A stretch of DNA of 44,034 bases, taken from contig JAHDHV010000009.1 in assembly GCA_020631155.1 (NCBI GenBank), positions 1-44,034 on the forward strand, given 5' to 3'. A program made the position numbers and the translations under genes. Positions 8,805-42,157 of this stretch are shown here, one piece after another. This DNA comes from Bacteroidota bacterium (GTDB lineage: Bacteria; Bacteroidota; Bacteroidia; Chitinophagales; UBA2359). Every line of letters begins with the position of its first letter. Positions within the stretch are counted from its first letter, which is position 1. The notes under the pieces were generated by a model. That model was not told the DNA's origin and did not search any database. It saw only the letters and a list, made by a program, of their open reading frames with translations.

Positions 8805-9167
8805 ATGACCCCACAAGACTTTATCAAAAATTACGAAAAAGCATTAGCAACACAAGACTGGAAAAACGTTGCTCCACTCATGGCAGAACAGGCGAGTGTC
8901 ACTTTTTCCAATGGAGTCGTTCACATGGGAAAAGCAGCCGTAAAAATGGCGTTTGAGAAAAATTTTGCCTTAATCAAAAACGAAGCATATAACATTAGCA
9001 ATGTTCGATGGTTATTATTGGGCGAAACAACGGCAGTTTATTTATTTGAATTTTCGTGGAAAGGCATCATCAATGGTAAAGCTGCTGGCGGAAATGGCAT
9101 AGGAACATCCGTATTGATTCGAGAGCAGGATAAATGGGTTTTATTGACAGAGCATCTTGGGAAGTAA
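8805..9167 (+). CDS. SnoaL/NTF2-like small protein (DUF4440 type)
   Basis: A 120-residue protein starting at ATG 8805 (MTPQDFIKNYEKALATQDWK). An open frame reaches upstream to 8580, but there it only overlaps the monooxygenase remnant out of frame and should not be included. It follows the NTF2-fold pattern of helix then curved sheet: a long first helix, VAPLMAEQASVTFSNG, a GKAAVKMAFEKNFALI helix, then strands ending GTSVLIREQDKWVLLTEHLG. Such proteins include steroid-isomerase-like and unknown enzymes; no catalytic set can be assigned. The TAA stop is contributed by the first bases of an A-family repeat (TAAGTGCC at 9165), so the C-terminus may be altered by that insertion. Confidence 0.7.
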   Translation: MTPQDFIKNYEKALATQDWKNVAPLMAEQASVTFSNGVVHMGKAAVKMAFEKNFALIKNEAYNISNVRWLLLGETTAVYLFEFSWKGIINGKAAGGNGIGTSVLIREQDKWVLLTEHLGK

Positions 9168-9268
9168 GTGCCAAGCACTATTTAATTGTGCACAATTTTG
9201 TGCTAAAGTATTAGAAATGAGTAGTTTAGTCTTTTACTATTGTAACATTAATTTTGTCTAGGTACTTA
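9165..9268 (+). repeat. A-family 104-bp repeat, copy A1
   Basis: Starts TAAGTGCCAAGCACTA and ends TTTTGTCTAGGTACTTA. Contains the perfect 14-bp palindrome AATTGTGCACAATT and the small hairpin AGTGC-CAA-GCACT. The 3' part holds TAATTTTG, matching the Bacteroidota -7 consensus TA-N2-TTTG. Its first three bases are the stop codon of the NTF2-like gene. Confidence 0.9.
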
Positions 9269-9380
9269 GAATAGGAGATTGAAGACAATGGGAGCTATCA
9301 AATACCAAAAATTATTTGTATTTTTACCATAAAAAACGCAAAGTTTGAGCACTTTTTTACCAAAAATTATAAAAAAGACC

Positions 9381-21672: not shown

Positions 21673-21876
21673 TAGTGACTAGATGTTTTTTTTTGATGGG
21701 CGCTCTCTTTTTTAATAATTTCTGTAACGAAGGCTTTAGCCGTTGCAGCTTTTGTAAATATTTGTTAATCAGTAAGTTAGAAATGGAATTAATTGATTGG
21801 TTATTGTCAGTTTATGATTTCTAACAGCGAAATATCTAAAAGGCTAAATAGCCCAAAAGCAATTTTACCATTAAAG

Positions 21877-21980
21877 TAAGTACCTAGACAAAATTAATGT
21901 TACAATAGTAAAAGACTAAACTGCTCATTTCTAATACTTTAGCACAAAATTGTGCACAATTAAATAGTGCTTGGCACTTA
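21877..21980 (-). repeat. A-family 104-bp repeat, copy A2 (reverse)
   Basis: Begins TAAGTACCTAGACAAAATTA and ends AGTGCTTGGCACTTA; exactly 104 bases. The promoter-like TAATTTTG reads on the minus strand, toward the AraC gene. Confidence 0.9.
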
Positions 21981-24286: not shown

Positions 24287-25052
24287 AAAATTTTTTGTTG
24301 GTGAATGGAAAATAGTGATGCGAAAATAGGAGATATTTTTTGAATTTGTTGAAATGATTTTGATTGTCCAGATTTTTGCTTATTTTTATATAACACGATT
24401 AACTAACTTCTTTTGTGATTAATCATATAAGTTTTTGATTATAAAGAGGTTAGTACAATTGAATCAACCAAAAAGAGTAAAAGCAGACTACAAAAGTAAT
24501 TAGAAAAAAGAAAAAAGCACGCTAAAATTATTGCGCTATAACGTTTTAACAAACAAAATTGTTATAGCAAGTTTTGAAAAAAGAAAAGCTATATTGTAAC
24601 CATTTTAAAGCCTATTTGACCTACTACGCAAGCTTTTGACAAAGTGTGTTAATTAGTGAGACCAATGTATATGTTTCAGCGTCTTTATAACCTAACATAT
24701 ATAATTAATTGGCTCTTTGTTAATTAATTCATCTCTACACAACCACTAGAACTAACGCCATTTACCCCAACTTTGCAAAGCCTCTAACACATTAAACTGT
24801 ATTGTGCATGAAAAATGCTACAATGAAAATCGCACTATTGTCACAACTATTTAAAAAAAGTTCAGATTATGAAACTTATTGATGAATCTTAAAATGCTAT
24901 GTCTAATGTGTTGATTTAAAAATGCTTATATGATTAAACTCAGCTAATTGCTTTACCTTTTTATTGTAAAAGCATGTTTAAAAATGCTCTTTAGACAAGC
25001 AAGTTCTTTATTTTTCATTGAATAGGTATCTTTTTTGCTGCTTATTACTTGT
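24287..25052. other. AT-rich intergenic region without recognised genes
   Basis: About 770 bases upstream of the sulfatase-fold gene. I see no supported coding frame and no copy of the dispersed repeats. A weak hairpin, GCTTTAC-N8-GTAAAAGC (about 24951-24975), follows TAAACTCAGCTAATT. The phrase AAAAATGCT recurs three times between 24795 and 24985. A small RNA gene could be hidden here, but nothing decides it. Confidence 0.4.
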
Positions 25053-25150
25053 TAAGTGCAAGTACTAATTAATTGTGCAAAATTTTGTTGTAAAGTATTG
25101 AACTTCATTACTTTACTCAAAAAAGATTGTCGTTTTATTTTGCTAAGTAA
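25053..25150 (+). repeat. B-family repeat, copy B2, joined to a C-type stretch
   Basis: TAAGTGCAAGTACTAATTAA, then CTAAAGTATTGAACTTCATT as in B1. It passes directly into AGACAAAATTAAACAACTAT and a heptad array at 25209-25243 (TCTCACA, TCCCATG, TCTTAAA, TCTTATG, TCTAAGT). Confidence 0.75.
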
Positions 25151-25248
25151 TTAGACAAAATTAAACAACTATGGGATTTGTCATAAATTATTAATAGTAA
25201 ATGAATTATCTCACATCCCATGTCTTAAATCTTATGTCTAAGTACTTA

Positions 25249-25409
25249 GTAGTTAGTCAACGTTAAAATGACGGGTTGATGTTGAGTGATTTTTGTTCCC
25301 TAGCAAGGCGCAAAACGTAGGCATAGCCAAAGCTACGGCGAGGCTTTGTAACACAGCTAGGGAGCAAAAAACGCCAAAAGTAATCGTCAATTTTATCTTG
25401 ACTGACTAC
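25249..25409. mobile_element. D-family hairpin element, copy D2 (161 bp)
   Basis: Ends GTAGTTAGTCAA and TTGACTGACTAC, with TTA outside both ends (25246-25248, 25410-25412). The arms pair along most of the length (GTTCCCTAGC with GCTAGGGAGC near the top). The core reads ACGTAGGCATAGCCAAAGCT followed by ACGGCGAGGCTTTG. It is inserted at the end of a C-type repeat, 29 bases before the histidine kinase start. Confidence 0.9.
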
Positions 25410-25437
25410 TTAGATACTTATTAAAAAGTTAATTACA

Positions 25438-36976: not shown

Positions 36977-37132
36977 ATTGAAAAACAAATCAAAGTAAAT
37001 GCTTTTGATTATTTTCGCAGTAGAATTTACGAAATTAAGTAGATTTCAAACACTGTATTTTTTAATTAAACTGTTGCTTTATATTTAATAATTTATTAAT
37101 TGATGATTCGTAGAACAGTGATTTGTTAATTT

Positions 37133-37236
37133 TAAGTGCCAAGCACTATTTAATTGTGCACAATTTTGTGCTAAAGTATTAAAAATGAGCAGTTTAATCT
37201 TTTTCTATTGTAACATTAATTTTGTCTAGGTACTTA
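37133..37236 (+). repeat. A-family 104-bp repeat, copy A4
   Basis: TAAGTGCCAAGCACTATTTA to GTCTAGGTACTTA, exactly 104 bases; TAATTTTG at 37217-37224 points toward the flavin reductase gene. Confidence 0.9.
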
Positions 37237-37365
37237 GAACTAATTTTTAATAGCTACTCCCCCAAAAAGTCTAAAAATCCAAAAGGCAATTTTAGAAACA
37301 AAGAGTATTAGAAAGATAATGAAACATACTCAAAATTACGCACTTTTTAAGTTTAAATAAATACC

Positions 37366-38259
37366 ATGTATAAAACCATTAATCCCAAAAATATTTCACA
37401 AGGAAGCTTAAATCACTATCTATTATCTGCGGTAGCTCCTCGACCGATTTGTTTTGCTAGTACGATTGACAAAGCAGGAAATGTGAACCTCGGCCCATTT
37501 AGTTTTTTTAATGTGTTTAGTTTCAATCCGCCTATTATGATTTTTTCAGTAGTAAGACGAGGGCGCGACAATACAACCAAACATACCTATCAAAACATTA
37601 TGGAAGTGAAAGAGGTTGTCATCAATGTTGTGACCTACCCAATTGTGGAGCAAATGTCATTGACCAGTATGGAATATGCAAAGGGCGTGAACGAGTTTGT
37701 AAAGGCAGGGCTAACACAGGTCGACAGCCAACAGATACGACCGCCGAGAGTGGGGGAGGCTGCTGCTGCTTTTGAATGTGTGGTAGAGCAAGTCATCGAA
37801 CTAGGAGAGGGACCAGGTGCAGGAATTTTGATTGTAGCAAAGGTGGTTTTGATGCATTTTCAGGAAACTTATTTAAATGAAAAAGGAAATTTAGACATCC
37901 CAAAACTAGATTTGGTGGCGCGAATGGGGGGAAGTTGGTATTGTCGAGCGACTCCAGAAGCTTTATTTGAAATTCCTAAGCCCCTGAAAACCAAAGGTAT
38001 AGGTGTTGATCAATTACCTAAACACATCCGCAATAGCTCCATTTTAACAGGCAACAACTTAGGGCGATTAGCTAATGTAGAGGCATTGCCTACGAAAGAA
38101 ATAATTCAGGAATTTAAAAAAAGTGCAGATTATCGAAAGCTGGGAACAGATTTGCTTGGTAATCAAGAGGCGATTCACAAATTAGCAAAAAAGTGGTTAG
38201 CAGAAGACATTGAAACAGAAAAAGTATTGACATTATTGTTGTGTAGAGACAATTCATGA
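37366..38259 (+). CDS. Flavin reductase-domain protein (FMN-binding split barrel)
   Basis: A 297-residue cytoplasmic protein. The flavin-reductase-like domain spans about 15-200: LLSAVAPRPICFASTIDKAG, NLGPFSFFNVFSFNPPIMIF, RDNTTKHTYQNIMEVKEVVI, NVVTYPIVEQMSLTSMEYAK. These strands and the NLGPFSFFN segment are the usual FMN-binding features. A C-terminal helical tail of about 80 residues (RNSSILTGNNLGRLANVEAL onward) is an addition seen in some Bacteroidota homologues. The substrate is unknown; such proteins reduce flavin for monooxygenases or act on their own. It is preceded by the A4 repeat and followed by an intrinsic terminator. Confidence 0.85.
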   Translation: MYKTINPKNISQGSLNHYLLSAVAPRPICFASTIDKAGNVNLGPFSFFNVFSFNPPIMIFSVVRRGRDNTTKHTYQNIMEVKEVVINVVTYPIVEQMSLTSMEYAKGVNEFVKAGLTQVDSQQIRPPRVGEAAAAFECVVEQVIELGEGPGAGILIVAKVVLMHFQETYLNEKGNLDIPKLDLVARMGGSWYCRATPEALFEIPKPLKTKGIGVDQLPKHIRNSSILTGNNLGRLANVEALPTKEIIQEFKKSADYRKLGTDLLGNQEAIHKLAKKWLAEDIETEKVLTLLLCRDNS

Positions 38260-38306
38260 ATTATCTCCCATGATTTGCCCCCCTAATCCAACCTTCCGAA
38301 AAAAGC

Positions 38307-38343
38307 AAAGCCCTCAAAATCTTAGCTGCGATTTGAGGGCTTT
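38307..38343 (+). terminator. Intrinsic terminator of the flavin reductase gene
   Basis: AAAGCCCTCAAAATC pairs with GATTTGAGGGCTTT with an 8-base loop, 48 bases after the stop. Confidence 0.85.
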
Positions 38344-38413
38344 CTCATCTTTACAATCAAAGATGAAATGCTACTACTTGCTGTCTTTAAAATCCTCTTT
38401 TATTAAAAAATAA

Positions 38414-38688
38414 ATATCTCCTCAAAAATGTATGATAAAGCCACTATCTAAATAAGAAGTTCACATTTAACCTTTTGGAGATGAAGCCTCAGCGAATTAC
38501 CCATTCACCTAACTTGACTTTAACTTTACTTTCTGAGCCAACATTATCGTCATAATGTTTTTAAAACTATTTAGCAAAGTCTAACTAATTAAATGTAAAT
38601 CTACATCTAAGCTCCTGAAAGTCAATATTTTGATAAAATTAATTGTCTCTTATTGACTTAACTTCACCCTCACGCTTTGAGGAGATAT
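38414..38688. ncRNA. Candidate structured RNA closed by a 13-bp stem
   Basis: ATATCTCCTCAAA (38414-38426) is exactly complementary to TTTGAGGAGATAT (38676-38688). Inside are AACATTA-TCGTCA-TAATGTT (38540-38559) and AAGTCAATA (38619-38627) with TATTGACTT (38651-38659). No coding frame is supported. A terminator-like hairpin follows at 38715. Strand unknown. This could be a small RNA, a leader or chance structure in AT-rich DNA; the long exact outer stem argues against chance. Confidence 0.4.
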
Positions 38689-38714
38689 CGTTTTTATAAC
38701 TTTATTGTTTATTT

Positions 38715-38767
38715 AAAAAATGTTGGACACTTTGTGCCTTCACACAAAATGCTACCCAACATTTTTT
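38715..38767 (+). terminator. Hairpin AAAAAATGTTGG...CCAACATTTTTT
   Basis: A 12-bp exact stem with an inner helix (TTTGTG with CACAAA) and a T run on either strand. It can terminate transcription in both directions. Confidence 0.7.
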
Positions 38768-38799
38768 ATGTGAAAAAATTCACGTTTTTACTAAAAAGT

Positions 38800-39122
38800 A
38801 ACTATGCAAAAACTATATAACACTAACCAAAAACTAAACGTCAATTTTGAAAAACAGTAGCAAGTACTACAATCTTGTACTGTTACTTATCTATATGTTG
38901 AAATGAACTTAAAAGGGAGAAATGGGGGGCTTTTTTTTTAAAAAAAAATTTGTAAATAATGAAAAGTGTTGAACAAATACTTATGGAGTGTTCAACACTT
39001 TTCACTGTACCAAAAACTATGCAAAAACTATATAACACTAACCAAAAACTAAATGTCTGTATTTTTACTAACTTATATGTTTATTCTCCAGCAAAAAGGA
39101 GAAAAGACAGCTCTTTTTTTTA
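38800..39122 (+). ncRNA. Tandem pair of related non-coding units (candidate small RNA genes)
   Basis: A 43-base segment (AACTATGCAAAAACTATATA, ACACTAACCAAAAACTAAA-Y-GTC) occurs at 38800-38842 and 39015-39057, 215 bases apart. Each copy is preceded by a strong terminator-like hairpin (38715-38767; 38961-39003) and followed, after an ACTTATATGTT-like phrase, by a purine-rich GGAGAAA segment and a long T run (about 38912-38940; about 39094-39122). No coding frame is supported. The arrangement suggests two paralogous short transcripts. The transcript strand is inferred from the T runs. Confidence 0.5.
38961..39003. terminator. 15-bp perfect hairpin between the two non-coding units
   Basis: GAAAAGTGTTGAACA (38961-38975) pairs with TGTTCAACACTTTTC (38989-39003), 13-base loop. 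It can act on both strands. Confidence 0.75.
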
Positions 39123-39390
39123 AGAAAAAAATATCTTTTTGTTTAAAAAGTTGACAATCAGAGGGTTCTAGCGAAAAAAATAATCGTAAAATTTAGTGTA
39201 ATAGGAGACATGTTTTTGAGTGCCGATAGAGTAATAAAATTTTTTTATACATTTGCTTCAATAAGGAAGTCGCGAAAAAGTGAATGAATACATTTTTCAA
39301 GAAAAGAAAATAGGAGCTATTTACAACTAAACGATTCCTTCGGTACTCAAGGTGTCTAAATATTTATCAAAAATCCTTCAACAAATATCT

Positions 39391-40497
39391 ATGAAAATAA
39401 AGTTGCCAACCATTGTGTTGCAGCCTTTACCACAACAGCACATCAAAGCCCTTGACGGATTGCGAGGTATGGCCATCACATTGGTATTGTTATATCACTG
39501 TTACGGTTACCTTTTTCACTTCGGATGGATGGGCGTAGATTTGTTTTTTGTATTATCAGGATTTTTGATAACCAATATTCTTTTAAAAACAAAGTTTAAG
39601 CCAAAGTATTTCCGCAATTTTTGGGCAAGGCGAATACTGCGTATTTTTCCATTGTACTATTTTTCCTTATTCATTATTCTATTTCTACTACCACCTTTAT
39701 TAAGTAAATTTGATTTTTCCTATTATCATCAGCATCAACTCTGGTTTTGGGCGTATTTGCAAAACTGGCTCTACTCCTTAGAAGGCTGGCCAAAGAATCA
39801 TTTACTGCATCATTTCTGGTCGTTGGCTGTGGAGGAGCAGTTTTACCTATTTTTTCCCTTATGTGTGTATGCTTTTCGCAAAAAAACCTTGTTGCTCTTT
39901 TGTGGAATAATGATTGTAAGCAGTATTGTATTGCGGTATTGGGGCGCATCCATTGGTTTTGTTTCGCCTTTTGAGTATGTACTCACTATAGCGCGAATGG
40001 ATGCCTTATTGCTCGGCGCAGCAACCGCTATACTGATGAATATGGATAAAGGACGGCAGTATTTGGCGCGATATACCTTGCCTGTAGGTGCTTTAAGTGT
40101 GGTTTATTTATTGGTGATATTTGCGTTAACCAAAAACTGGTTTATTTACAATCCTTATTTTGCCAAGTTGGGTTATACCATTATTGATGTGTTTTTTGTC
40201 TGTTGTTTGGTAGTGGCGTTGATGCCTAAAAATACATTTGTAAAGCGTTTTTTGGAGCATAAATATTTATGTTGGATGGGAAAATATTCCTATGGGCTGT
40301 ATGTCTATCATTTTCCAATATACTGTATATCAAGAGTTTATTTGTTGCCTGAATTAACCAAAATGTTGCCTATGCCTGTATTTTTTGTAAAATTAGTGAA
40401 TGCAGTATTGGTCACCATCGCAACAATTGTTATTAGTTATTATAGTTATCATTTGCTCGAAAAACATTTTTTGAAATTAAAGCGGTATTTTACGTGA
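39391..40497 (+). CDS. Acyltransferase-3 family membrane protein (OafA/YrhL type)
   Basis: A 368-residue polytopic protein; I use ATG 39391 (MKIKLPTIV). A GTG at 39352 would add 13 residues. The signature N-terminus ALDGLRGMAITLVLLYHCYG has the conserved His of the family, followed by GWMGVDLFFVLSGFLIT and the basic FWARRILRIFPLYY. Later it has HHFWSLAVEEQFYLFFP, another family hallmark. About ten membrane segments. Members acylate sugars of lipopolysaccharide, exopolysaccharide or antibiotics; the acceptor is unknown. Its stop codon merges with a reverse heptad array. Confidence 0.85.
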   Translation: MKIKLPTIVLQPLPQQHIKALDGLRGMAITLVLLYHCYGYLFHFGWMGVDLFFVLSGFLITNILLKTKFKPKYFRNFWARRILRIFPLYYFSLFIILFLLPPLLSKFDFSYYHQHQLWFWAYLQNWLYSLEGWPKNHLLHHFWSLAVEEQFYLFFPLCVYAFRKKTLLLFCGIMIVSSIVLRYWGASIGFVSPFEYVLTIARMDALLLGAATAILMNMDKGRQYLARYTLPVGALSVVYLLVIFALTKNWFIYNPYFAKLGYTIIDVFFVCCLVVALMPKNTFVKRFLEHKYLCWMGKYSYGLYVYHFPIYCISRVYLLPELTKMLPMPVFFVKLVNAVLVTIATIVISYYSYHLLEKHFLKLKRYFT

Positions 40498-40533: not shown

Positions 40534-40660
40534 ATTTTTTAGAATTTTGGATGGGAACTTTACGCTGTTATTCAGTCAAATATAGCGACAATTTTTTGTA
40601 TTTCATGTGTATTAATTGTTGCTCAAAATCGAACCAAAACGATAGCTAAATGGTTATTTT

Positions 40661-40764
40661 TAAGTGCCAAGCACTAATTAATTGTGCACAATTTTGTTCT
40701 AAAGTATTAGAAATGAGGAGTTTAGTCTTTTACTATTGTAACATTAATTTTGTCTAGGTACTTA
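40661..40764 (+). repeat. A-family 104-bp repeat, copy A5, directly before the Rpn gene
   Basis: TAAGTGCCAAGCACTAATTA to GTCTAGGTACTTA, exactly 104 bases. TAATTTTG (40745-40752) fits the Bacteroidota -7 element and lies 30 bases before ATG 40783, so the repeat could supply the promoter; no clear -33 element is visible. Confidence 0.9.
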
Positions 40765-40782
40765 CAAGAAAAAAAAGAACTT

Positions 40783-41778
40783 ATGGGACATAAATACATC
40801 AACTTATTTACTGATTTTGGCTTTAAAAAAATATTTGGAACAGAAGTTAACAAAAATTTGCTGATTGATTTTTTAAATGGATTGTTACATGAGCAACAGG
40901 TAATTAAAGACCTCAGTTATTTACAAAATGAACATCTTGGTAGTAGTAGCCTTGATCGGCGAGCTATTTTTGATCTTTATTGTGAAAATATACAAGGGGA
41001 AAAATTCATTGTAGAATTGCAAAAAGTAAGTCAGAAATTTTTTATTGATCGCAGTATTTATTATTCTACTTTTGCCATCCAAGAACAAGCTAAAAGGGGG
41101 AAAGCGTGGAACTACGAATTAAAGCATGTGTATACAGTTGGAATTATGGATTTTATATTTAAAACGGAAAGGAAATATGAGCAAAAACACCTTACATATG
41201 CTCAGTTGATGGATAGGGATACAAAAGAAGTGTTTTATGATAAACTGTCTTATGTGTATTTAGAAATGCCCAAGTTCACTAAAAAATTAGAAGACTGTAA
41301 GACTCACTTTGAAAAATGGCTTTTCTTTATTCGCAATCTCCATAATTTAGAAAATGTTCCTTCCCTGACGAGAGAGGACGTTTTTTTACAGCTTTTTCAA
41401 CAGGCCGAAATTGCTACATACACATCAAAGGAGCGCGTTGCTTACGAAAATAGCCTTAAATATTATCGCGATCTTCAAGGAGCTATGGAAGCACATATGG
41501 AAAAGGGACTAGAAAAGGGTAAAAAAATTGGTGAAAAACAAGGACTAGAAAAGGGTAAAAAAATTGGTGAAAAACAAGGACTAGAAAAGGGTAAAAAAAT
41601 TGGTGAAAAACAAGGACTAGAAAAAGGTAAAAAAATTGGTAAAGAGGAAGGCATGAAAGAAGGCATAAAAACTGGTAAAATAATGACTGCTAAAGAGCTT
41701 TTGCAAATGGGTTTATCCATACAACAAATAGCAAAAGCAACAGGTTTATCAGAGGAGGAAATTAAACAATTATTATAA
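40783..41778 (+). CDS. Rpn-type PD-(D/E)XK nuclease / putative transposase family protein
   Basis: A 331-residue protein from ATG 40783; an upstream TTG at 40750 lies inside the A5 repeat and is not used. The N-terminal domain matches the Rpn/PDDEXK_2 family: INLFTDFGFKKIFGTEVNKN, LIDFLNGLL, RAIFDLYCENIQGEKFIVEL, in which D and E-x-Q (FIVELQK) form the nuclease site, and the RSIYYSTFAIQEQAKRG motif. A central helical region follows. Residues about 240-290 are 12-residue repeats (GLEKGKKIGEKQ, three exact plus one changed), then AKELLQMGLSIQQIAKATGL, a small HTH-like C-terminus. Known relatives promote RecA-independent recombination or act in phage defence. An in-frame ATG at 41485 with AGGAG just upstream could give a C-terminal short form, as described for RpnS proteins. 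Confidence 0.85.
   Translation: MGHKYINLFTDFGFKKIFGTEVNKNLLIDFLNGLLHEQQVIKDLSYLQNEHLGSSSLDRRAIFDLYCENIQGEKFIVELQKVSQKFFIDRSIYYSTFAIQEQAKRGKAWNYELKHVYTVGIMDFIFKTERKYEQKHLTYAQLMDRDTKEVFYDKLSYVYLEMPKFTKKLEDCKTHFEKWLFFIRNLHNLENVPSLTREDVFLQLFQQAEIATYTSKERVAYENSLKYYRDLQGAMEAHMEKGLEKGKKIGEKQGLEKGKKIGEKQGLEKGKKIGEKQGLEKGKKIGKEEGMKEGIKTGKIMTAKELLQMGLSIQQIAKATGLSEEEIKQLL
41506..41649 (+). repeat. 36-bp tandem repeat inside the Rpn gene (about four units)
   Basis: Units begin GGACTAGAAAAGGGTAAAAA; three copies (41506, 41542, 41578) are identical and the fourth (41614) diverges. The repeat is in frame, so copy-number changes would alter the coiled linker by multiples of 12 residues. Confidence 0.9.
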
Positions 41779-41907: not shown

Positions 41908-41933
41908 TTAGTAATTAGGTATTTTTTTAAAAA

Positions 41934-42094
41934 TCTAAAAATCTAAAAATCTAAAAGTCTAAAAGTCTAAAAGTCTAAAAAGCTAAAAAGCTAAAAGTCT
42001 AAAAAGCTAAAAGTCTAAAAATCTAAAAAGCTAAAAAGCTAAAAGTCTAAAAATCTAAAAGTCTAAAAAGCTAAAAAGCTAAAAGTCTAAAAAG
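41934..42094 (+). repeat. 8-bp-period array of about 20 units before icd
   Basis: Units TCTAAAAA, TCTAAAAG, GCTAAAAA and GCTAAAAG follow each other for 160 bases, ending GCAATTTTAAATCATTACC. The icd start is 64 bases further on. A-tracts thus recur every 8 bases in the upstream region of a housekeeping gene. Confidence 0.9.
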
Positions 42095-42157
42095 CAATTT
42101 TAAATCATTACCTTTGCAGCAAATTTTAAAAAAATAAACGTATAAAAATATTAACTT

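Follow-up and report, generated by a model that had tools for sequence, protein, structure and literature searches.

What is encoded by two related units, each built around the same 43-base segment, in the DNA of a Bacteroidota bacterium (GTDB lineage Chitinophagales; UBA2359)? The units lie at about 38711-39121 of contig JAHDHV010000009.1 (GenBank assembly GCA_020631155.1), of which we analyzed positions 1 to 44,034 of the forward strand; this whole 44,034-nucleotide stretch is called the window below, and the 43-base segment the core. We propose that the units are a lineage-specific pair of tandem sibling small RNAs (sRNAs), a tentative reading to which we give a probability of roughly 0.45; the pair is a candidate, and nothing more.

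The core occurs twice on the + strand, at 38800-38842 (unit 1) and 39015-39057 (unit 2), with 42 of its 43 bases identical and 39 bases in an exact match. Chance levels were taken from shuffled sequence, with the number of shuffles given for each test: the longest direct repeat was these 39 bases, against a maximum of 17 in 300 shuffles. Both units have the same order of parts, namely a strong hairpin, the core, a purine-rich stretch and a T run, all on the + strand. Unit 1 begins with a hairpin at 38711-38771 (13-bp stem 38714-38726/38756-38768, 29-base loop), has a small hairpin in its tail (38855-38890, limits approximate) that falls largely inside a 33-base stretch missing from unit 2, and finishes at 38911-38938 with purine-rich sequence leading into nine Ts (38930-38938), an end that is terminator-like with a weak stem. 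Unit 2 opens with a hairpin at 38959-39005, whose perfect 16-bp stem (38960-39004, 13-base loop) was equalled in none of 500 shuffles, and closes at 39093-39121, where eight Ts (39114-39121) follow purine-rich sequence. The purine-rich/T-run ends share 76% identity over 38 bases. Direct repeat, hairpins and tail homology all exceeded chance in the shuffle tests. An earlier note on this DNA had described two related units, each with a hairpin, a common 43-base segment and a purine-rich end with a T run, and this description is confirmed by both coordinates and shuffles.

The tails 3' of the two cores aligned better than in 1000 of 1000 shuffles, so that the two loci are related in sequence well beyond the core, as expected of sibling sRNAs. 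The cores differ at one of 43 positions, a single C/T difference, compared with 24 of 70 ungapped positions in the tails (Fisher p 3.5e-5); with the T run excluded, the tails still differ at 21 of 54 positions (p 1.3e-5 versus the core). These shuffle tests and the contrast between core and tail indicate that the units are duplicates in which the core has changed less than its neighbourhood, bearing out the observation of 43 nearly unchanged bases in diverged surroundings. The earlier note took this to imply function in the shared segment. The better-kept core stands, and selection would be its natural reading, but local gene conversion would fit equally well: since only two copies exist, conservation and recent conversion are inseparable.

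We then considered the predicted folds, which scored z -3.58 for unit 2 and z -2.56 for unit 1 against shuffles. The core, with only 2 G in its 43 bases, is unpaired in the minimum-energy folds of both units, with a mean unpaired probability of 0.78 in unit 1 and 0.86 in unit 2, versus 0.38 and 0.42 for the rest of the respective units. Sibling sRNAs would share an accessible segment, and here the segment is predicted to be mostly unpaired and is better kept than the tail, in one species only. Because A-rich sequence always pairs poorly, the accessibility of the core lends weak support.

Bacteroidota promoters follow the pattern TTTG-N(16-22)-TAnnTTTG. We scanned the + strand of 38260-39351 for strict matches, defined as a full TTTG with at least 5/6 in the second element. 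The sole match was TTTG-N17-TAACTTTA at 38676-38704, with 5/6 in the -7 element and a predicted start at about 38711, at the foot of hairpin 1. Shuffled sequences had a mean of 0.5 strict matches, and in 1.35% of them a match fell no more than 6 nt from the start of one or the other hairpin. The match to this transcription signal is no more than suggestive.

If the units are sibling sRNAs, two + strand transcripts would be expected, one spanning about 38711-38938 and the other about 38957-39121. In both, a stable 5' hairpin would come first, the G-poor core that they share would be exposed single-stranded for interaction, and the T run would mark the 3' end. The core may act in trans by base pairing with messenger RNAs, with an RNA-binding protein as a possible partner. 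The genome encodes two short RRM-1 proteins, and a search of it with the Hfq model gave no match. We consider it doubtful, though worth stating, that this Hfq-less-looking bacterium has a lineage-specific tandem sRNA pair outside the described RNA families, whose 43-nt internal single-stranded segment would serve an RRM-1 protein or long target pairing. If true, such a tandem pair, with its single kept segment, would offer in this branch of the Bacteroidota a compact test of the role of a shared segment where Hfq appears to be missing.

Tandem sibling pairs are well known in bacteria, and the units would add to that kind without being conceptually new. As in the sibling sRNAs of Pseudomonadota (OmrA/OmrB, PrrF1/PrrF2 and AbcR1/AbcR2; PMC4211561), related units stand side by side, and kept stretches alternate with diverged ones as nearly identical and diverged stretches do in OmrA/OmrB (PMC4211561). 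Unlike those siblings, which measure 82-88 nt, the units here span about 165-228 nt, are known from sequence alone, and belong to a genome in which no Hfq was found. Within the same phylum, the Bacteroides thetaiotaomicron RRM-1 protein RbpB binds the paralogous FopS sRNAs, a set of 14 RNAs, each about 65-70 nt long and with its seed at the 5' end, that is conserved across Bacteroidaceae (PMC11697453). Compared by description, the units resemble FopS in having a shared motif (about 41 nt in FopS; PMC11697453) with a diverged remainder, and the presence of RRM-1 proteins in the genome recalls the FopS setting. Unlike the FopS family, in which many copies of the motif are spread over the genome, the units are two tandem copies only, without a known relative.

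Several results weigh against sibling sRNAs. The 5' hairpins of the two units are unrelated in sequence (P 0.2). The promoter scan of 38260-39351 gave no strict + strand match for unit 2, which might therefore be read through from unit 1, and neither T run received a strict terminator call, with no strong stem directly before it. A pairing test of the core, limited to the window's 23 gene starts, produced no standout (best z -2.36). The earlier note had set conservation of the core in relatives as a test beforehand, and its absence as grounds for refutation: the core was absent from 397 other genomes of the order, including 19 other members of the family and none of the same genus, which goes half of the way to that refutation. 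No exact 29- or 24-mer of the core was found in viral or genome contigs, and a distant blastn search against phages and plasmids returned no match. A profile of core plus tail, run on 60 other genomes, detected AT-rich background only, with a best score of 21 bits versus 131 and 94 bits for the units themselves.

Other searches were likewise empty. Within its own genome, no third copy of the core was found when as many as 3 mismatches were allowed over 24 or 38 bases. The flavin reductase gene upstream of the units is present in 15 other family genomes, with no core-like sequence nearby (the best has 18 mismatches in 43). An 18-base core pattern gave 6 matches in genome and viral contigs, which we attribute to chance because they agree at 20-27 of 43 positions over the full core and have nothing else in common with the surroundings of the units. 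Rfam gave 0 matches in the window at gathering score, and relaxed thresholds yielded weak matches below the gathering scores, mostly to animal or plant families, none of them credible. Taken together, the idea of paired regulatory RNAs with a common target-binding segment is favored by the layout, the kept unpaired core and the placement of the promoter match, and finds no backing in the other genomes searched.

In the strongest rival reading, the units stem from an incomplete tandem duplication of AT-rich intergenic DNA that has no function. Recent gene conversion or re-duplication would have made the 43-base part alike again, and nothing would be made or bound. The restriction to one lineage, with no homologue in family genomes, agrees with this, as does a pair of copies whose conservation is indistinguishable from recent conversion. 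Yet the matching position of the hairpins upstream of the two cores, the contrast between core and tail (p 3.5e-5) and the promoter placement exceed what such a duplication needs, and we regard it as unlikely.

We also asked whether the units might be part of the 5' leader of the downstream acyltransferase gene (39394-40497) and work in cis, either as tandem attenuators or as hairpins that bind a protein. They lie directly upstream on the same strand, with tandem hairpins followed by T runs. However, about 270 bases separate the last T run from the start codon, and no Rfam riboswitch or leader was matched; the other 19 family genomes have no comparable acyltransferase (E <= 1e-40). A leader is, in our view, improbable.

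Less probable again is that two short reading frames (MQKLYNTNQKLNV...), of 18 codons from 38804 and 34 codons from 39019, begin in the core and encode paralogous leader peptides or micro-peptides. There is an ATG in the core with A-rich bases before it, and the sole core difference is synonymous (AAC/AAT). One synonymous change is, however, expected by chance in about one third of cases, and the same change would be silent if the other strand were read; the peptides diverge wholly past the core, and the database searches turned up no relative of this DNA. Least probable of all is a DNA site such as a double operator or recombination site built on CAAAAACTA repeats. Each unit's core contains two such repeats, and in unit 2 a third overlaps the core start. 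A genome search tolerating up to 3 mismatches over 24 or 38 bases, however, found no third site, and the hairpin and T-run ends of both units would be left unexplained.

Upstream of the candidate sRNAs, exact 13-bp arms (38414-38426/38676-38688) bound a stretch of 275 bases at 38414-38688, with no strand assigned; the TTTG of the promoter match overlaps the 3' arm. The closed stem reported by the earlier note therefore exists, but a structure is not supported: 19 of 500 shuffles (3.8%) had an equal or longer exact stem at a similar distance, and the predicted fold of the whole (z -3.44) derives from the stem, because the enclosed 249 bases alone fold at z -0.79. We found neither a second copy of the stretch nor a credible homologue in family genomes. 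As a single-copy sequence with an interior that folds like shuffles, it was rejected as a mobile element or structured RNA; it is probably not a structured element and is excluded from the main finding.

The units and this stretch lie in the interval 38260-39393, bounded by the flavin reductase gene (37366-38259, +) and the acyltransferase gene (+). A scan for open reading frames found none longer than 54 codons in 38260-39351, so the gene-free kilobase of the earlier note is real; it is not special, because the window has other long intergenic stretches, e.g. 24287-25437 (1151 bases). A 12-bp hairpin with a 13-base loop at 38307-38343 probably terminates transcription of the flavin reductase gene.

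Outside the interval, a repeat about 104 bp long, whose ends are imperfectly inverted (TAAGTGCC...GGTACTTA), is dispersed over the genome, with copies at 37132-37237, 40660-40765, 21876-21980 (-) and 9165-9271 (+) and diverged ones besides. The 6.5-Mb genome has at least about 40 copies, nearly all of 92-99% identity (40 of 637 candidates scored), and at least one further subfamily has the same left half and a different right half. The repeat resembles a miniature inverted-repeat transposable element, perhaps with a TA target. One copy sits just 5' of a PDDEXK_2 gene at 40783. This PD-(D/E)XK nuclease family transposase gene contains, 3' of the nuclease domain, about 4 copies of a 36-base direct repeat (a multiple of three) at 41501-41644, with identity up to 97%. 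Between it and an isocitrate/isopropylmalate dehydrogenase gene, an 8-base unit (TAAAAGTC, TAAAAAGC and TAAAAATC variants) is repeated head to tail about 21 times at 41928-42095.
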